Positions 40,577 through 63,518 of a DNA stretch of 64,000 nt are shown here, one piece after another. The stretch is taken from assembly GCA_900321965.1 (NCBI GenBank), contig ONYA01000007.1, positions 46,533 through 110,532 of the forward strand, given 5' to 3'. This DNA is from an uncultured Prevotellaceae bacterium (GTDB taxonomy: Bacteria > Bacteroidota > Bacteroidia > Bacteroidales > Bacteroidaceae). The number at the start of each line of letters is the position of its first letter. Position 1 is the first letter of the stretch. The notes below the pieces were generated by a model, which saw only the letters and a list, made by a program, of their open reading frames with translations, searched no databases and was not told the origin of the DNA. Both the position numbers and the translations under genes were made by a program.

Positions 40577-40858
40577 CAAGAGAACATTTCGACAGGAGTA
40601 CATGAGAACGTCTTTTTTGACAAGAGGACAAGAGAACATTTTAGACATGAGTACATGAGAACAAGAGGACAAGAGGACAAGAGAACATTTTAGACATGAG
40701 TACAAGAGAACAAGAGAACAAGAGAACATAAGACAAAAGAACTTTTTCAGACATGAGTACAAGAGAACATAAAGACAAAAAGCTCAACTCTAATTGTACT
40801 CATGTACTCATGTCAAAAACGTACTCATGTACTCATGTCGAAAACGTACTCATGTATA
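40575..40858. repeat. Degenerate octamer array 1, after pepT
   Basis: The 290-nt spacer after pepT is built of words of form AnGAGnAC (reverse complement GTnCTCnT), separated by GACA/TTTT links. The first part (40575-40760) is in one orientation and the last part (40795-40858) in the other, so the two can fold into a long stem. No other gene is seen here. Confidence 0.85.
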
Positions 40859-52948: not shown

Positions 52949-53036
52949 TGTACTCTTGTACTCCTGTCAAAAGTACTCTTGTACTCCTGTCAAAAAGTAC
53001 TCATGTACTCCTGTCAAAAAGTACTCCTGTACTTAA
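52949..53036. repeat. Degenerate octamer array 2, after the AAA/PD-(D/E)XK gene
   Basis: GTnCTCnT words alternate with GTCAAAAA. Read on the - strand, it starts in the stop codon of the gene ending at 53033. Confidence 0.9.
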
Positions 53037-54577
53037 ACGATCTGCCAGTCATCAATCAGTTTTTTCTCTGACGAGAAGTTGATGCCTATCTTGAACAGTT
53101 TCCGTGCATCGCCGGCAAAGGCATTGGCATAGCCCTTCTCCTCTATCTGCTTTAGGGCAATGTCGGCACTCTGGTCGATCTTCAGCTCAAGGATATAGAT
53201 ATAGTCCGGCGTCTGGATGACGATGTCCATACGTCCGTTCGTCGTATGACGCTCTACCTCCACATAGAACCCCATGAGACGGAAGAACACGTAGAGCGTG
53301 TTCTGCAGGTACAGCTCCATCTTTCCCATCACCTGATAGTCACCCGTGGCGAAGAATCCATCCAGCCGACGCATGAAACCAGCGGCGTCGCCTCGTCGCA
53401 CATCCTTGACGAAACTCGACATGGCATAGGTCTTCTTGTCCGTAGTCTTGGGCGTGTAGAACGGCAGCAGGTACTTGATGAAACCCTGTTCCACCTCGCG
53501 GTTGGGGAATCCCATTCGGTATTCGCCGAATTCGCTGTCATAGCCCTTGATTGTCAGGTAGCCACTCTGGTAGAGCAGCGGCAGCGGGTTCTCGTCCATG
53601 ATGTCGATGCTGTTGAGCGTGTCGGCAGACAGCTCCTCCTCCGTCATGTTTTCGAGCGGATAGCCCGTCTTCTTCAGCTGGTAGACCAGGAACGACGGCG
53701 TACCCGTCTCGAACCAGTAGTCGCGGAAAACCAGGCTGTCGAAGGTGTTCAGCAGGCTGAACGGATTGTAGATACCTTCCTTCGTGTACTCATTGAAATA
53801 ATAGCCGTCGAAATCCTGGCGCAGGCGCTCGTAGCACTCCTCCTTGGTCTGACCGTTGTTTGCGGCCAACGCCCCGACGCTGTCGTCGAAGTTTTCGTGC
53901 AGCTCTTTCTCCGTGATACCGCAGATATTCGAGTAGGCGGGCAGCATGGAGATGTCATTCAGGTTGTTCAGGTCGCTGAACACGCTCACCTTGCCGAATT
54001 TCGTCACTCCCGTCAGGAAGGCCAGCTTGATATAGCGGTCACAGGATTTCAGGGCACCGTAGAACGCCTTCAGCGTGTTGCGATACTCCGTCTGCAGTTC
54101 CGTATTGCCGATAGCCTGCAACAGCGGCTTGTCGTATTCGTCCACGAGGATAACCACCTGACGGCCGGTCTTCTCAAATGCCGTACGGATGAGACGCTCA
54201 AAACGTCCTGCAACCGTTTTTTCTATCACACGAGGCTCATATTGATGCTCCCATTCCTGAAGTGTTCTTTCCAGAACGATTGACAGAGTCTCTCTGCTGT
54301 CATACTTCTCGGTATTCAGGTCCAGGTGCAGGATGGGATATGCCTGCCAGTCCCACTCCACGCTGTCGACGTACAGTCCCTTGAACAGCTCGCGCTCGCC
54401 ACAGAAGAAAGCCTCCAGCGTGGAAAGGAACAGCGACTTGCCAAAGCGTCGCGGACGAGAGAGGAAGTAATAGCTTCCCTCCGACACCATCTTCCACATC
54501 AGTGACGTCTTATCGACGTAGGCGAAGCCGTCACGTCTTATCTTCTCAAAGTTCTGTATTCCTATCGGGTATTTCAT
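53033..54577 (-). CDS. AAA-ATPase-like / PD-(D/E)XK nuclease domain protein
   Basis: 514 residues from ATG 54577 (MKYPIGIQNFEKIRRDGFAYVDKT), the standard start of the AAA_ATPase_like (PF09820) plus PDDEXK_9 (PF08011) proteins that exist in many copies in Bacteroidota. It has SRPRRFGKSLFLSTL (P-loop-like), VILVDEYDKPL (Walker B-like), and a C-terminal nuclease-like core (GRMDIVIQTPDYIYILELKI, D-x-ELK). The role is unknown; mobile-element or defence functions have been suggested for the family. A relic of a second copy is at 60014-60072. Confidence 0.87.
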   Translation of the reverse strand: MKYPIGIQNFEKIRRDGFAYVDKTSLMWKMVSEGSYYFLSRPRRFGKSLFLSTLEAFFCGERELFKGLYVDSVEWDWQAYPILHLDLNTEKYDSRETLSIVLERTLQEWEHQYEPRVIEKTVAGRFERLIRTAFEKTGRQVVILVDEYDKPLLQAIGNTELQTEYRNTLKAFYGALKSCDRYIKLAFLTGVTKFGKVSVFSDLNNLNDISMLPAYSNICGITEKELHENFDDSVGALAANNGQTKEECYERLRQDFDGYYFNEYTKEGIYNPFSLLNTFDSLVFRDYWFETGTPSFLVYQLKKTGYPLENMTEEELSADTLNSIDIMDENPLPLLYQSGYLTIKGYDSEFGEYRMGFPNREVEQGFIKYLLPFYTPKTTDKKTYAMSSFVKDVRRGDAAGFMRRLDGFFATGDYQVMGKMELYLQNTLYVFFRLMGFYVEVERHTTNGRMDIVIQTPDYIYILELKIDQSADIALKQIEEKGYANAFAGDARKLFKIGINFSSEKKLIDDWQIV

Positions 54578-54619
54578 CGTCAACATTCTTTAGACAAGAG
54601 TACAAGAGGACTGGTCTTT

Positions 54620-55561
54620 TTACGCCAGTCGTTTTATGGTATTCAAGTCCTTACCTAAACTTTCGGCAATCTCCTCTACCGACTTGCCCATTTCCAACAG
54701 CATCTTCACAGTCGTTCGCAGCATCTCCTCTTGCTCCGCAAGTTGGGTCTTCTGCTCTGCAAGTTGGGTCTTCTGCTCCGCAAGTTGGGTCTTCTGCTCC
54801 GCAAGCTGCTTGTCACGCATAAGAATCTCCGTGTCACGTTTCTCGATGGCACCGAAATACTCATCCTCCACATTCATCTTATGGCGCATATCGGCATCAG
54901 CAGCTGCCATCGTCAGACGGTGAAGGATGCGTTCCATGTCTGCATCATTGGCATAAGCCCTGTCATCTATCTGCAACAGGCGGTTATCGTTCACATCCCT
55001 CCGCGTCTGGTCAAAGATGCTCAGCACCATATCCAGCCGATTGTTGATATGACCATGCAGACGGGGTATCTGAACAATGATGCTGTCGTGCGTCAGACTG
55101 TCGACAAAAGGATTCGGCAAGCCCTTTGTCACAATGTTGTTATTGTAGTCAAAAGACTGGTGGCTTACATAGAGCACAGGCTCCTCCACATCACCAACCT
55201 TGTGACCCAACAGATAGACGGCTACCATCGGCAAACTACGACCCGAGTCCAGCATATTCTTCGGATTCGAATAATGCACGCCAAGATACTGACGGAAACG
55301 CAGAGTCTCCGTGTCAAGCCAAGTCTTCTGCAGTTCAATCAGAATAAGATGCTCCTTGCCGTCGGACTCACGGATAGTTGCACCGAAGTCGATGCGGAAG
55401 ACTGACAGCGAGTCGCGGGTCTCATCACTGTACTCATGAGGACGAACCTCCACAGCCACAACGTCCTTCTTCAGCAACGCCGACAGGATGGTACGAGCGA
55501 TACGCTCATCCTCCATCAGGTACTTGAACACAATATCATATATAGGATTTGCTACTACCAT
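54620..55561 (-). CDS. Rpn/PD-(D/E)XK nuclease-family (transposase-like) protein with heptad repeats
   Basis: 313 residues. The N-terminal domain (MVVANPIYDIVFKYLMEDERIA, RIDFGATI, HLILIELQKTW; D and E-x-Q of a PD-(D/E)XK core) matches the Rpn/PDDEXK_2 group, thought to promote recombination. Residues ~255-285 are four near-identical LAEQKTQ heptads forming a short coiled coil, from an in-frame 21-bp DNA repeat. The tail (VEEIAESLGKDLNTIKRL) looks like a small HTH. It was not found as part of a complete insertion sequence here. A promoter precedes it. Confidence 0.83.
   Translation of the reverse strand: MVVANPIYDIVFKYLMEDERIARTILSALLKKDVVAVEVRPHEYSDETRDSLSVFRIDFGATIRESDGKEHLILIELQKTWLDTETLRFRQYLGVHYSNPKNMLDSGRSLPMVAVYLLGHKVGDVEEPVLYVSHQSFDYNNNIVTKGLPNPFVDSLTHDSIIVQIPRLHGHINNRLDMVLSIFDQTRRDVNDNRLLQIDDRAYANDADMERILHRLTMAAADADMRHKMNVEDEYFGAIEKRDTEILMRDKQLAEQKTQLAEQKTQLAEQKTQLAEQEEMLRTTVKMLLEMGKSVEEIAESLGKDLNTIKRLA
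54734..54812 (-). repeat. In-frame 21-bp tandem repeat in the Rpn-like gene
   Basis: About four copies of a 21-bp unit encode LAEQKTQ; the copies differ by a few bases. Confidence 0.9.
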
Positions 55562-55782: not shown

Positions 55783-55925
55783 GTACTCCTGTACTCATGT
55801 CCTCGTGTCCTCTTGTACTCCTGTCAAAAAGTACTCCTGTACTCCTGTCAAAAAAGTACTCATGTACTCCTGTCAAAAAGTACTCCTGTACTCCTGTTTA
55901 AACAGTTCTCCTGTCCCCCTGTCCT
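55783..55925. repeat. Degenerate octamer array 3
   Basis: About 140 nt of GTnCTCnT words (GTACTCCT, GTACTCAT, GTCCTCGT, GTCCTCTT, GTTCTCCT) with GTCAAAAA links. It fills the spacer between the Rpn-like gene and the cassette that starts at 56041. Confidence 0.9.
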
Positions 55926-56040: not shown

Positions 56041-56301
56041 ATGTCAAGAAAAGGACTGCTGAGCCTGTGCACAGGCTTCCTCCTCGACGAGGTGCGACGC
56101 GACCATCATGTGACGATGATCACCGACGAATGCGGCATCAACCGCAAGTACATGAACAAGAAGAACTTCCCGCTATTGCGATTCCACCAGTTGGTGAGAC
56201 TGCTCTCCGCCACGTCGTCGTGGACGACGCGTGAGCGGTTCAGTGACTTAGGGGCACGACTGTTCGGGACCATCTGGGACGAGTATGAAGGCGAGGTGTA
56301 G
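56041..56301 (+). CDS. Small hypothetical protein at the head of the helicase/amidase cassette
   Basis: 86 residues, not recognised. It is basic, with MSRKGLLSLCTGFLLDEVRRDH at the start, INRKYMNKKNF in the middle and an acidic end. No signal peptide or membrane helix is seen. It is likely in one operon with the ATPase gene 25 nt downstream, and a -7-like box lies about 55 nt upstream. Confidence 0.6.
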   Translation: MSRKGLLSLCTGFLLDEVRRDHHVTMITDECGINRKYMNKKNFPLLRFHQLVRLLSATSSWTTRERFSDLGARLFGTIWDEYEGEV

Positions 56302-56326
56302 CTTTGTTTGTAAAAACTGAAAAATC

Positions 56327-57481
56327 ATGACGCAAATCGAATCACTTATCAGGGAGGAGCTCGCCCAGGCTGGCGAGACTACCTCCATCACACCCGAGCT
56401 GCTGAAGCTCGACGATTTCCGTATCACCTCGTCGACAGACGTCGCCGAGGAGGAGTTCCTCTTCAGGATGTTCGGCACGCCGTGCTTCCCACGGTGCGAG
56501 CTGACGACCATCACCGGTTTGGAGAAATGCGGCAAGACATTCTTCTCGACGATGCTCATGGCCTGCTGCGCCACACGTCAGGCCTTGGAGCTGGAACGCA
56601 TCCGCGAAGAGCCGCTGAAGGTGTTGTGGTACGACACCGAACAGAGTCGGCAGTCAACGCGAAATATCTTGAAAAAACGGGTGGCGCCGATGGTCGGCGC
56701 AGACCCTTTTCCAGAAGCGCAGTATTTTGTGTATAACGTGCGGTCGTGCTGCTACCAGGAACGGTTGGAGATGCTGGTGACGGGCATCTCCGCCTACCGT
56801 CCTGACCTGGTGATCATCGATAACATCAGCGACCTGCTGCCGAGCATCAACGACAGCGAGGCGTCGGTGCAGGTCATCGACCAGCTGCTGCAGATAGCCA
56901 GCGAATACAGCTGTAACGTCACGGTGGTCATCCATCTGAACAAGTCGGGCGAGAAGCGCAACCTCCGCGGCTGGCTTGGTACGGAACTGCTGCATAAGTC
57001 GTTCGAGGTGTTCTACTGTGAGCGTATCTACAACACAAAGGTGTTCTCCGTTGAGCAGACACTATCGCGACAGCAGGAGATAGACCCGAAGCTCTACTAC
57101 GAGGTGACGGCAGAAGGACTGCCGGTAGTTACGAAAAAACCTGACACCACGACGAGGGATGCACAGGGGAAGTTCACGAGCAGTAGAACAGAGACCTACC
57201 AGGTGTCGGCAGAGAAGGCGGCGACCTTCAACAACGAGTATATCATCCGTCATCCTGACGATGCCGCCAATCCGTGGGAGTGGGACCTGCGACGGCTCTT
57301 CACCGACGCCATGGGGTCGCGGGCGTCGATAGACCGCGACGACCTGAGACGCCTCGTGATGGAGAAAGCTGGCATCCGTGTAGAGAGATACTACAAAAAG
57401 CTGTTTGAGTTAGCTATGGACCAGCGGGTGATCAAGACGACGATGGACCGCAACGGACGGGTGGTCGTCATCATAGTCTGA
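56327..57481 (+). CDS. RepA/RecA-like AAA ATPase (AAA_25 type)
   Basis: 384 residues. The P-loop is GLEKCGKT (64-71), Walker B is DLVIIDN (Asp165), and VVIHLNKSG and LRGWLGTELLHKS follow as in RepA/RecA-like hexameric ATPases of plasmids and phages. The C-terminal ~110 residues look like a winged-helix DNA-binding segment. This type of protein unwinds DNA or supports replication initiation. It is preceded by a small hypothetical gene and followed, after a long hairpin, by a primase-like gene. Confidence 0.8.
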   Translation: MTQIESLIREELAQAGETTSITPELLKLDDFRITSSTDVAEEEFLFRMFGTPCFPRCELTTITGLEKCGKTFFSTMLMACCATRQALELERIREEPLKVLWYDTEQSRQSTRNILKKRVAPMVGADPFPEAQYFVYNVRSCCYQERLEMLVTGISAYRPDLVIIDNISDLLPSINDSEASVQVIDQLLQIASEYSCNVTVVIHLNKSGEKRNLRGWLGTELLHKSFEVFYCERIYNTKVFSVEQTLSRQQEIDPKLYYEVTAEGLPVVTKKPDTTTRDAQGKFTSSRTETYQVSAEKAATFNNEYIIRHPDDAANPWEWDLRRLFTDAMGSRASIDRDDLRRLVMEKAGIRVERYYKKLFELAMDQRVIKTTMDRNGRVVVIIV

Positions 57482-57483
57482 CA

Positions 57484-57548
57484 CCGTTCCCCTCTTTCTA
57501 TCGCCCACCCTCTATAGAGAGGGGTGGGCATAAAAGAGAGGGGGAACG
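57484..57548. repeat. Long two-part inverted repeat between ATPase and DUF6371 genes
   Basis: CCGTTCCCCTCT (57484-57495) faces AGAGGGGGAACGG (57536-57548), with inner arms GCCCACCCTCT and AGAGGGGTGGGC. It starts three bases after the ATPase stop codon. It could be a terminator-like or processing structure. Confidence 0.8.
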
Positions 57549-57617
57549 GGGTCTAGTTATAACGACCACGGACAAGTCACTTACTACCCATCTCCTTACT
57601 CCTCATCTCCTTCAGAA

Positions 57618-58409
57618 ATGCATTTAAAAGACATTCTCACACCATCGATGAAGCAGGTACGGCGGGCGTATGACCCGCGACCGCTGTGGCAGCGCCGCCT
57701 GTCGGCCGACAGTGCGTTCTGCAGGGCTGTGGTGACTGCCGGCTACCTCTCGCAGGAGCAGATGCTCAGGGCAGCCCAGCGCTACCGTTTAGGCTGCAGC
57801 CGCGACGGCGGCGTCATCTTCTGGCAGATAGACCAGATGGGGCTTATCTGGGACGGGAAGATCATGTACTACCGCCCTGACTGTCACCGCGACCACAGCC
57901 GCCATCCTAACTGGGTCAGCCATCTGCTGAAGGTGCATTACGGCTGTCAGCATCTCGACATCCCGACGGCGCACTGCCTCTTCGGACTCCATCTGCTCAG
58001 CGGGCTGAGCGACGACCAGACGGTATGTGTCGTAGAGAGCGAGAAGACGGCTGTCATCTTGTCAGAGGCCATCCCCGACTGCGTATGGCTGGCGACGGGC
58101 GGTCTGCATGAGCTGAAGGCCGTGAAGCTGCTGCCACTGCGCCACTACCGTGTGGTACTCTTTCCTGACACCGACGAGCATCATCAGGCTTATTCGCTGT
58201 GGTATGAGACGGCGCAGAAGGCGCGCCGCGACTACGGCGTTCACTGCCTCGTCAGTCCCCTCTTAGAGCAGCAGGCCTCGCCAGAGCAGAAACGGCGAAA
58301 GATCGATCTTGCAGATTGGGCCTCCCCCAACCCCTCCGAAGGAGGGGAGAAAGGGCCTCCCCCGGCCCCTCCGAAGGAGGGGAGTAAAAGCCCACACAGA
58401 CCCTCCTAA
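57618..58409 (+). CDS. DUF6371 (primase/TOPRIM-like) protein
   Basis: 263 residues. VCVVESEKTAVILSE and VVLFPDTDEHH give the Glu and DxD pattern of a TOPRIM-like fold, and the N-terminal region (GGVIFWQIDQMGLIWDGKIMYY) matches DUF6371 proteins found on Bacteroidota mobile elements next to helicases. The last ~28 residues (SPNPSEGGEKGPPPAPPKEG) are translated from CCCCTCCGAAGGAGGGG intergenic repeats, so the true end of the fold is near residue 235. It probably acts in DNA replication or priming together with the upstream ATPase. Confidence 0.78.
   Translation: MHLKDILTPSMKQVRRAYDPRPLWQRRLSADSAFCRAVVTAGYLSQEQMLRAAQRYRLGCSRDGGVIFWQIDQMGLIWDGKIMYYRPDCHRDHSRHPNWVSHLLKVHYGCQHLDIPTAHCLFGLHLLSGLSDDQTVCVVESEKTAVILSEAIPDCVWLATGGLHELKAVKLLPLRHYRVVLFPDTDEHHQAYSLWYETAQKARRDYGVHCLVSPLLEQQASPEQKRRKIDLADWASPNPSEGGEKGPPPAPPKEGSKSPHRPS
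58320..58395. repeat. CCCCTCCGAAGGAGGGG repeat, copy pair A
   Basis: Two hairpin-forming palindromes in direct repeat; the first lies inside the DUF6371 reading frame. A related pair follows the HU gene at 59339. After it, 58410-58530 holds a TTTAATGTTTAAT string and no gene. Confidence 0.9.
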
Positions 58410-58534
58410 TATGGTCGCTTCGCTCGGCATCCCGTCAGGGTGACGCTTGCCTTAGCAAGAATTTTCTTAGAATTTTGAGGCAAAAGGCCGACCCTATTTA
58501 ATGTTTAATGTTTAATATTTAATTTTTTACCATC

Positions 58535-58714
58535 GTGAAGTCAATGTCAAAATCAGAGCTGGCCGCTCGGGCCGGCGTCAGTCTTAACACCTTCAGCCGC
58601 TGGTGCCAGCCCTTCCGCGAAGAGTTAGCGGCCATGGGACTGCAACCCCATCAGAAGGTGCTTCCTCCACGTATCGTGAAATATCTCGTAGAAAAGCTCT
58701 GTATCGATACGTAA
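58535..58714 (+). CDS. DUF4248 small protein
   Basis: 59 residues from a GTG at 58535 (an ATG three codons later is possible). I prefer the GTG because the smalltalk gene below has the same setting: a TTTAATnTTTAAT string, then ATCGTGAA. The sequence SKSELAARAGVSLNTFSRWC, with RWCQPF and KVLPPRIVKYLVEKL, resembles DUF4248, a small HTH-like family whose genes sit beside HU and amidase genes in Bacteroidota. Function is unknown; the helical repeats suggest DNA binding. Confidence 0.75.
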   Translation: MKSMSKSELAARAGVSLNTFSRWCQPFREELAAMGLQPHQKVLPPRIVKYLVEKLCIDT

Positions 58715-58749
58715 CTCACGAAAGTCATCACCGCCACGCCGGAATGTTG

Positions 58750-58757
58750 TAACTTTG
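58750..58757 (+). promoter_or_regulatory. -7 element of the HU-like gene
   Basis: TAACTTTG, 112 nt before the ATG at 58869. The long leader (58758-58868) is filled with GTGAAAA/TTTTCA and GCGCGC words that can fold. Confidence 0.5.
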
Positions 58758-58868
58758 CATGGTGAAAAGGAATTTTCAGCGCGCGAAAAAAACTTTTCAA
58801 GCCGTGAAAATAAAATCTCGCGGCGCGAGAACCAACACAAAAACTAAACCCTTTAAACAACAAGAACT

Positions 58869-59339
58869 ATGCTTGAACTGAATCTTTACAGAAACAAGAT
58901 GACCACGTCGAAAGGCTATGGCATGATCTATGGCCGCGTGGAGAAGAAAGAGACGTATGACCTGGCGAAGCTGGCCGAGCACATGCACAACCACAACTCG
59001 CCCTACTCGGCAGGTGTCATCCTCGGCATCCTGAAGGACATGGTGTCGTGTATCCGTGAGCTCTGTCTGGAGGGCAACCAGGTGAAGATCGAGGACCTCG
59101 CCATCTTCTCGGTGCAGATAGCCTCGAAGGGCGCTAACAGCTTCCTGGCCTACGACATCGCGAAGCACGTGAAGGACGTACACCTGAACGCCTATTCCAC
59201 TGGCGAGTTCCGCCGTGCGGAGCTGATCAAGGACGGCATCATCGGCTACACCTCACTGGCCGAGAGCCTCCGCGACGCCGAACGTCCAACACCGGAGCCG
59301 ACACCAGAACCGGAACCCGACGATGATGATGATGATTAA
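58869..59339 (+). CDS. HU-related DNA-binding protein (TIGR01201 type)
   Basis: 156 residues, longer than classical HU (~90). LNLYRNKMTTSKGYGMIYGRV and the core (LAEHMHNHNSPYSAGVILGILKDM...VKIEDLAIFSVQI) fit the HU-related family found next to amidases in Bacteroidota. The family keeps the beta-arm DNA-binding region. The tail is proline/glutamate/aspartate-rich (PTPEPTPEPEP then six Asp). It may bend DNA or act as a regulator; its mission beside a cell-wall amidase is unknown. Confidence 0.85.
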   Translation: MLELNLYRNKMTTSKGYGMIYGRVEKKETYDLAKLAEHMHNHNSPYSAGVILGILKDMVSCIRELCLEGNQVKIEDLAIFSVQIASKGANSFLAYDIAKHVKDVHLNAYSTGEFRRAELIKDGIIGYTSLAESLRDAERPTPEPTPEPEPDDDDDD

Positions 59340-59411
59340 GGCCTCCCCCAACCCCTCCAAAGGAGGGGAGTAAAAGCCTACCCCGACCCTCCCGAAGGGA
59401 GGGAGAAGGAG
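59339..59411. repeat. CCCCTCCnAAGGAGGGG repeat, copy pair B
   Basis: It begins at the last base of the HU stop codon. Two hairpin-forming copies are followed by a TTTAATnTTTAAT string up to the smalltalk gene. Confidence 0.85.
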
Positions 59412-59473
59412 CCGCCAAATTCTTAAAATTTAATGTTTAATATTTAATGTTTAATCTTTAATTTATCACTATC

Positions 59474-59575
59474 GTGAAACGAGAAACCTGGAAACAGATC
59501 ATTCAGATCGTCATCACCGTGTTAACAGCTATCGCCACAACACTGACAACAACATCATGCGTATCATCACTCTGA
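59474..59575 (+). CDS. 'Smalltalk' protein: 33-residue single-helix peptide
   Basis: GTG start; the sequence VKRETWKQIIQIVITVLTAI, then ATTLTTTSCVSSL, matches the short Bacteroidota family called smalltalk, encoded just before an N-acetylmuramoyl-alanine amidase. It has a charged N-terminus, one hydrophobic helix and a Cys near the end in a lipobox-like context (TTTSC). It overlaps the amidase start by 19 nt in another frame, so the two are probably co-translated. A role as a membrane partner or holin-like factor for the amidase is only inference. Confidence 0.82.
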   Translation: MKRETWKQIIQIVITVLTAIATTLTTTSCVSSL

Positions 59576-59970
59576 TTATCGTACACTGCAGTGCCGTACG
59601 CCCCGACCAGCAGAGCTCAGCCGCCCAGATCGACACCTGGCACAGGAAGCGGGGCTGGAAACTTGGCATCGGCTACCACTACGTCGTCCGCCGCAGCGGA
59701 GAGGTCGAACAGGGAAGGCCTGAGTTCATGGTCGGCGCCCACTGCATGAACCACAACAGCCACTCCATCGGCGTCTGCTACGAGGGAGGGCTCGACATCC
59801 GCGGACAGCCCGCCGACACGCGCACCGAGGCACAGAAGGAAGCCCTCAGGCGTCTGCTCGCCGACCTGCACCGCCGCTACCCCAAGGCTCTCATCGTCGG
59901 TCATCACGACCTGGATCCGCAGAAGTCCTGTCCGTGCTTTGATGTCGTCAAGGAATACTCACTGTTGTAA
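59557..59970 (+). CDS. N-acetylmuramoyl-L-alanine amidase (Amidase_2, T7-lysozyme-like)
   Basis: 137 residues, a single catalytic domain like phage endolysins. Zinc ligands are likely His10 (VHCS), His116 (GHHD) and Cys127 (CPCFD); Tyr40/His41 (GYHYVV) and Lys123 complete the site. No signal peptide is seen (MRIITLIIVHC is the first beta-strand), so export would need help, e.g. from the adjacent smalltalk peptide. It cuts the amide between MurNAc and L-Ala. It is the last gene of the cassette, followed by a terminator. Confidence 0.93.
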   Translation: MRIITLIIVHCSAVRPDQQSSAAQIDTWHRKRGWKLGIGYHYVVRRSGEVEQGRPEFMVGAHCMNHNSHSIGVCYEGGLDIRGQPADTRTEAQKEALRRLLADLHRRYPKALIVGHHDLDPQKSCPCFDVVKEYSLL

Positions 59971-60118: not shown

Positions 60119-60217
60119 ACTCCTGTACTCCTGTCCTCCTGTCAAAAAATCTCCTGTCCTCATGTACTCCTGTCAAAAAGTACTTCTGTCCTCTCTTCAG
60201 AACGGACTCTTGTACTT
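60119..60217. repeat. Degenerate octamer array 4, at the end of the WecG/TagA gene
   Basis: CTCCTGTACTCCTGTCCTC words with GTCAAAAA links; the end of the array (60197-60217) is inside the coding sequence of the next gene on the - strand. Confidence 0.85.
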
Positions 60218-63436: not shown

Positions 63437-63518
63437 GTCCTCATATACTCATGTACTCATGTCTAAACAGTACTCCTGTCCTCTTGTACTCCTGTCTAAA
63501 CAGTACTCCTGTACTTAT
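63437..63518. repeat. Degenerate octamer array 5
   Basis: GTCCTCAT, ATACTCAT, GTACTCAT and GTACTCCT words with GTCTAAACA links. Confidence 0.85.

Follow-up and report, generated by a model that had tools for sequence, protein, structure and literature searches.

A modular Bacteroidaceae gene cassette in which exchangeable replication heads precede a smalltalk-amidase tail, possibly a reduced mobile element

Why should genes that look suited to DNA replication stand on one strand with a gene for an enzyme that looks suited to cutting the cell wall? The question is raised by a gene block at positions 56041 to 59970 of a stretch of 64,000 nucleotides (nt) from an uncultured Prevotellaceae bacterium (contig ONYA01000007.1), here called the window, whose source genome (G000) comprises 92 contigs and is 78.7% complete. 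The block encodes an ATPase and a DUF6371 protein, here called the head, followed by a tail made of a DUF4248-like protein, an HU-related protein, a 33-amino-acid (aa) peptide named smalltalk, and a peptidoglycan amidase. Our answer, held with evenly balanced confidence, is that the block is a modular cassette of the Bacteroidaceae assembled from mobile-element parts, in which a replication head is combined with a wall-cutting tail, and that it represents a reduced satellite- or plasmid-like module.

All genes of the block lie on the + strand in the order given by an earlier note on this DNA, and profile scores support the names that it used (Table 1). Its count of six genes from position 56041 did not hold, as seven open reading frames (ORFs) lie within 56041 to 59970; the first, an 86-aa ORF preceding the ATPase, had no convincing family match in profile scans, nor did the fetched loci contain a convincing relative. 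Also, the fourth protein is called DUF4248-like because it fails the Pfam gathering cut-off for DUF4248, and a home-made profile places its family at the equivalent position in other cassettes.

Searches with profiles built from the window proteins recovered the complete order AAA_25-DUF6371-DUF4248-HU-smalltalk-amidase at seven loci in six genomes (the window, L124, L135, L137, L383, L402, and L404), with two copies in one genome and with the ATPase running to the contig end at L137 and L402. Incomplete cassettes lack smalltalk (L136 and L401), smalltalk together with DUF4248 (L403), or the tail (L146), and the cassettes at L001, L150, and L405 reach a contig end.

Different replication modules swap in ahead of a like tail. 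For instance, VapE, with or without BT4734_N, precedes DUF4248-HU-smalltalk-amidase at L118, L119, L125, and L133, as judged by Pfam matches of single proteins. A Bacteroides finegoldii sequence labelled as a plasmid (NZ_OY725914) carries BT4734 and DUF3987 head genes according to its record annotation. Pfam assigns a fused BT4734-DUF3987 head to L370, DnaB to L364, a single protein with zinc ribbon, Toprim, and DnaB_C domains to L363 and L365, and Lin1244_N to L361, with several of the head matches in this set being weak. Two smalltalk-amidase stretches with different heads, at L124 and L131, share 91.7% identity across 482 nt, and L128 and L130, from two species, are 92 to 97% identical through most of 2.9 kb. 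The study by Kazlauskas et al. (PMC5862659) groups BT4734 with archaeo-eukaryotic primases and describes VirE (PF05272), DUF3987, and RepA as known or predicted helicases that are interchangeable in mobile elements. The recurrence of the amidase pairing with unrelated, swapped heads suggests a reduced mobile element or a suicide-type module.

The association of head and amidase was measured in units for which 2.5 kb or more of upstream sequence was available, and a head was counted if it lay upstream, on the strand of the unit and no more than 3.5 kb away. A head is present in 23 of 30 units with a full amidase (the window included) versus 3 of 28 HU or smalltalk units without one, units of one genome not being independent of each other (G103 supplies six of the 28). 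Counted per genome or record, the figures are 17 of 22 with the amidase and 3 of 12 without, and when three units holding only an amidase fragment are placed in the amidase-free group, the latter reads 3 of 31 (Fisher P = 9e-8). A second sample consisted of 20 amidase loci chosen blind to heads, 17 from other genera and three from the window's genus. Here, a head was found at 8 of the 19 loci with enough upstream sequence, namely, at 7 of 13 with HU on the same strand and at 1 of 6 otherwise; head-type genes on the opposite strand at L381, L387, and L400 were left uncounted. The linkage between replication genes and the amidase looks real, and the earlier proposal that replication-like and lysis-like parts form a recurring unit is borne out by the seven loci and by this co-occurrence. 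That note had also considered that the smalltalk-amidase pair might prove normally independent of the ATPase and DUF6371 genes. Taken literally, it does, since heads of other kinds are more frequent than this one; with replication genes taken together as a class, however, the amidase is not independent.

Purifying selection acts on most cassette proteins. Pairwise ratios of nonsynonymous to synonymous change (dN/dS, by the Nei-Gojobori method) are 0.09 to 0.15 for the amidase, 0.17 to 0.30 for the ATPase (three cassette relatives, with the window not included), 0.14 to 0.35 for DUF6371, 0.23 for the DUF4248-like protein, and 0.22 to 0.27 for smalltalk where unsaturated; these values are rough, since several synonymous distances exceed 1, and one HU pair was dropped as too divergent to align. 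The idea that smalltalk is a DNA or RNA element instead of a peptide was ruled out by its excess of synonymous change.

The head of the window can be described as a putative AAA_25 helicase followed by a putative DnaG-type primase core that lacks a zinc ribbon. By reading, the ATPase has the Walker A motif GLEKCGKT, and its residues G69, K70, D103, E105, and D165 are invariant across 14 aligned sequences; Protein Data Bank sequence searches with the ATPase and with HU gave no match for either. A structural model of DUF6371, built from an alignment of 30 sequences from the window and fetched related loci (mean predicted local distance difference test score, 85.8), retrieved Twinkle as the best Foldseek match (E = 8.5e-7), followed by DnaG (1.9e-4) and T7 gp4 (3.9e-4), with modest TM-scores by query length of 0.52, 0.44, and 0.40, respectively. 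The model has the Toprim RNA-polymerase-domain fold of a DnaG/T7-gp4-type primase. The N-terminal zinc ribbon of such primases is absent from DUF6371 of the window and of other cassette members (alignment A2) and is present, in the same alignment, in DUF6371 of integrative elements and in three HU-linked relatives (L147 to L149). The lack of the ribbon would predict helicase activity with no template-specific priming, as in Twinkle. The last approximately 30 residues of the window protein are read from a repeat, and this extension is absent in other cassette members. GC-rich, palindromic-looking repeats occur at 58319 to 58427, from which this extension is read, and at 59340 to 59413.

Relatives of this head occur on mobile elements. 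Pairs of an AAA ATPase and DUF6371 are found with integrase genes in Tn4555-type elements, with a mobilization gene in one such record, and of 80 viral DUF6371 loci, kept out of 390, 48 have an AAA_25-type ATPase. Three genomes (L144, L145, and L155) share, at 99.9% identity, a 9.3-kb stretch with an integrase-type gene, the ATPase, and DUF6371.

In the tail, the HU-HIG protein of the window has an acidic tail and a calculated isoelectric point of 5.0 and is 22 to 51% identical to eight other HU proteins. Smalltalk has one hydrophobic segment that ends in TTSC-VSSL. Among 76 distinct smalltalk peptides, 72 have a cysteine following the hydrophobic segment; a loose lipobox fits 64 of the peptides and a strict one 31. 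A possible reading of these residues is a nearly tail-less lipoprotein signal for signal peptidase II. Within genomes, smalltalk copies show a higher pairwise identity than their HU partners in 57 of 66 pairs in G069, 6 of 6 in G102, and 12 of 15 in G103. At loci L312 to L320 of G102, smalltalk with just its leader, a piece of approximately 145 nt, is roughly 91 to 100% identical, with unshared upstream sequence at some of them. The amidase aligns with T7 lysozyme (1lba and 1aro; E = 3e-33 to 4e-33) and keeps HCSA, YH, HH, and K-x-CP, which we take to be the metal and catalytic motifs of that enzyme; as the earlier note said, no signal peptide is evident on reading. In G069, remnants of the amidase C terminus, 46 aa long, stand some 1.1 kb away from copies of HU or smalltalk (L105 and L106), and these copies are about 90 to 97% identical between loci.

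The mechanism that we infer from these parts runs as follows. The head would open and copy DNA at or close to the cassette, with DUF4248 and HU controlling or shaping the copied DNA. The inner membrane would be where smalltalk works, and once the unit is switched on the amidase would cleave peptidoglycan, so that DNA copying would be tied to wall opening or lysis. The window cassette, having no integrase, relaxase, or capsid of its own, would move by recombination or with the help of other elements. A bolder version, which we regard as rather improbable, is a family-specific suicide or release device: unrelated heads and a fast-changing HU would control a constant killing part, made of the lipoprotein-like peptide and the amidase, and DNA copying would trigger cell opening.

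Several observations weigh against a reduced mobile element that joins replication to wall cutting. Twelve of the 28 amidase-free units come from a single genome (G069). No head accompanies seven of the 30 amidase units or, in the second sample, 11 of 19 loci, and none of these heads was found on 33 viral amidase loci (0 of 33). Because the DnaB, T7-like, Lin1244, and one VapE-type head profile were seeded from amidase loci, other kinds of head beside amidase-free units may be missed, and the DnaB head might be the host's own dnaB. The amidase lies within 400 nt downstream of none of the 30 best smalltalk loci in the genus. No integrase, relaxase, or packaging gene was recognized by Pfam among the ORFs at 53 to 63 kb beside the window cassette. 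The searches yielded no clean empty site and established no target duplication, and the GC content of the cassette resembles that of its left-hand neighbors. Tyrosine recombinases do adjoin the L137 cassette, and these could be helpers or a chance insertion.

Given no integrase beside the window cassette and no empty site, movement of the cassette between sites is inferred. Our own tyrosine-recombinase profile had no match in the window. The earlier note likewise saw no integrase, capsid, or relaxase in the window set. At L137, three tyrosine recombinases stand in a row (L137:703-3990), in a trio-like arrangement, between two oppositely oriented amidase genes. Upstream of pgk, three genomes match the L118 locus up to 33 to 55 nt past the amidase stop, which defines a 3' edge only, and a search with the whole L135 locus returned no genome with both flanks joined among the matches listed. 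Repeats of the TACTCCTGTCAAAAA type flank the block and have 15 matches with up to 2 mismatches in the window, versus 0.11 expected. They were considered as element ends and ruled out, as several further sites exist in the genome, including, with up to 1 mismatch, sites on eight other contigs. In another genome, at L129:1-9364, smalltalk-amidase directly adjoins a homologue of the 39.7- to 48.5-kb block of the window, which holds LptD and a PYC_OADA-domain gene.

Table 1. Genes and repeats of the block and its surroundings, in window coordinates
Feature	Position	Strand	Remarks
86-aa ORF, family unassigned	56041..56301	+	First gene of block; may fall outside the conserved cassette
AAA_25 (RepA/RecA-like) ATPase, putative hexameric helicase	56327..57481	+	71.1 bits, cut-off 27
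DUF6371, putative DnaG/T7-gp4-type primase core without N-terminal zinc ribbon	57618..58409	+	135.7 bits, cut-off 27.7
DUF4248-like small helix-turn-helix protein	58535..58714	+	23.8 bits, Pfam gathering cut-off 27
HU-HIG protein, HU-related	58869..59339	+	30.2 bits, cut-off 26.2
Smalltalk (NF033879; Pfam DUF6486), 33 aa	59474..59575	+	NCBIfam 45.4 bits, cut-off 24.7
T7-lysozyme-type N-acetylmuramoyl-L-alanine amidase (Amidase_2)	59557..59970	+	74.9 bits, cut-off 26
Intergenic repeat cluster, TACTCCTGTCAAAAA type	55786..55904	+	Left of block
Intergenic repeat, TACTCCTGTCAAAAA type	60120..60204	+	Right of block
TACTCCTGTCAAAAA-type repeat sites in window	40586-40844, 52959-53020, 55786-55904, 60120-60204, 63487-63501		

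A single operon is not established for the block, given gaps of 125 to 154 nt between the ATPase, DUF6371, DUF4248-like, HU, and smalltalk genes and the presence of internal -7 boxes. The sequence TAnnTTTG is the Bacteroidota-type -7 box; it precedes the first ORF, the ATPase, and HU, with three occurrences on the + strand versus 0.63 expected from 200 single-base shuffles. To the left of the block lie a PD-(D/E)XK-type gene at 53033 to 54586 (Pfam) and, at 54620 to 55561, a PD-(D/E)XK-type, Rpn-like gene identified by reading, for which no profile reached its cut-off. Rfam matched nothing over 54.5 to 61.5 kb, and the 64-kb window has no tRNA gene, its one such feature being a tmRNA at 9.1 to 9.5 kb. 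The source genome contains 2 smalltalk matches over the cut-off and 1 match to the window amidase.

Among the alternatives, an abortive or anti-phage module fares best, and we still regard it as unlikely. Here, the head and HU would sense foreign replication, and smalltalk and the amidase would kill an infected cell by damaging its membrane and wall. Interchangeable heads, a smalltalk that is more constant within genomes than HU, and HipA and restriction-modification genes among the flanks might suit such a role. Against it, the heads are ordinary replication proteins, and no PADLOC defense model fits; weak partial matches to the ATPase and the DUF4248-like protein were returned, plus the PrimPol model, which matches the BT4734 domain of L119.

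It is also improbable that these loci are remnants of decaying prophages or integrative elements that were retained by chance. The short amidase remnants in G069, the units missing one or more genes, and the DUF6371 that runs into a repeat are what decay would leave, but the order conserved at seven loci, the low dN/dS values, and the intact catalytic motifs of the amidase are not. Nor did 113 viral loci yield smalltalk or HU: our smalltalk profile had no match on 33 viral amidase loci or on 80 viral DUF6371 loci, and HU likewise was not found on these.

A further possibility, and a quite improbable one, is that HU and smalltalk are the true unit, a small dispersing pair for which the head and amidase are later cargo. 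Of 100 genomes sampled in the genus, 71 have a smalltalk match over the cut-off, the highest number in one genome being 18 (G069). The same holds for 44 of 101 family genomes (11 of 22 genera) and, across the order, for 3 of 148 genomes, which all belong to the window's family. In a genus sample of 30, represented by the highest-scoring copy per genome, 22 have a same-strand HU no more than 1 kb away, and six of the eight others have less than 500 nt of upstream sequence; smalltalk goes mainly with HU, and at none of these loci does an amidase lie within 400 nt downstream. HU-smalltalk stretches are about 90 to 97% identical at several G069 loci, as the copies of smalltalk in G102 are alike, which would fit dispersal. 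Dispersal of the pair leaves the association of amidase and head unexplained, and across the family, at 20 loci from 20 other genomes (19 in other genera), the amidase is near the best smalltalk in 7 and HU in 19. Other smalltalk copies do adjoin an amidase (e.g., L309 and L310 in G102). Of the 29 best amidases in the genus, 18 have HU upstream and 14 have smalltalk there; for five, little upstream sequence is available. In the open-licence literature searched, we found no function for smalltalk, no mention of DUF6486, and no title or abstract describing the cassette; "smalltalk protein" appears in one paper, as a line of an expression table (PMC10434189), and DUF6371 is likewise named in one (PMC13183296).

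A regulator and wall enzyme serving glycan export, which the earlier note offered as a simpler view, is very unlikely. WecG-type and other glycosyltransferase genes lie 0.2 to 3.1 kb to the right of the window block, and glycan genes adjoin one B. finegoldii locus, so the capsule-gene tie claimed earlier stands at these two places. To see how general it is, we scored flanks in the genus (126 proteins from 17 loci, being 127 with one giant dropped, and 80 of 107 proteins from nine loci, with L107, L108, and L110 left out) and family-wide (120 of 187 proteins from 13 loci); the sets exclude ORFs shorter than about 140 to 150 aa, family-wide also those above 1,200 aa, and the window's own flanks. 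No glycosyltransferase family has two members among the 126 or among the 80 genus proteins, and four of the 126 are Acyl_transf_3, a possible glycan gene. Family-wide, the families listed include ATPgrasp_ST (four), Glycos_transf_1 (three), Bac_transf (two), and Poly_export (two). The tie is therefore partial across the family and not a general rule in the genus, where flanks also hold genes for HipA, restriction-modification, phosphoglycerate kinase, DNA polymerase III alpha, and histidinol dehydrogenase. A role in glycan export also leaves the helicase and primase unexplained.

Finally, a holin/endolysin pair, to which the earlier note likened smalltalk and amidase, is scarcely credible, for while the amidase matches PHROG 822 "lysis" (199.7 bits) as well as T7 lysozyme and the 19-nt overlap reported before is confirmed at 59557 to 59575 and is the same at L124, L131, and L137, smalltalk frequently has no neighboring amidase and was not found on the 33 viral amidase loci, the two genes do not overlap at L118, L119, L135, and L160, and their order is reversed, amidase then smalltalk, in G102 and at L361 and L370.

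A reduced mobile element built from a swapped head and a wall-cutting tail makes the link between head and amidase a testable handle on smalltalk, predicting a mutual dependence of head activity and wall cutting. If this is right, bacteria, or elements hitchhiking in them, would have a route for tying DNA copying to cell opening, which would bear on gene exchange and phage defense in gut Bacteroidota.

Known systems share parts of this design. Phage-inducible chromosomal island (PICI)-type phage satellites carry an integrase, packaging genes, VapE-type or helicase-primase genes, and a small helix-turn-helix regulator. The cassettes resemble them in their VapE-type or helicase-primase replication genes and small helix-turn-helix regulator; unlike them, the window cassette carries an amidase, and integrase and packaging genes were unrecognized beside it. 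In phage T7, the gene 3.5 lysozyme lies near the gene 4 primase-helicase, and the window likewise has a T7-gp4-type primase core close to its T7-lysozyme-type amidase. In contrast to T7, the window has different genes for helicase and primase, and among the 19 of its ORFs scanned for element and phage families, no phage structural or T7-type RNA polymerase gene was seen. The single T7-gp4-like primase-helicase at L363:6445-8367 and L365:6378-8339, near HU, smalltalk, and a T7-lysozyme-type amidase, recalls T7 genes 3.5 and 4. Tn4555/NBU-type elements of Bacteroides share with the window an adjacent AAA ATPase and DUF6371 as a replication-type pair and differ in carrying an integrase, an excisionase, a mobilization gene (in one record), and a DUF6371 with a zinc ribbon. 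The cassette of B. finegoldii NZ_OY725914, at a polysaccharide locus, has a BT4734-DUF3987 head and DUF4248 on the other strand, but its HU, smalltalk, and amidase genes lie in the same order as in the window and, as there, downstream of replication-type genes.

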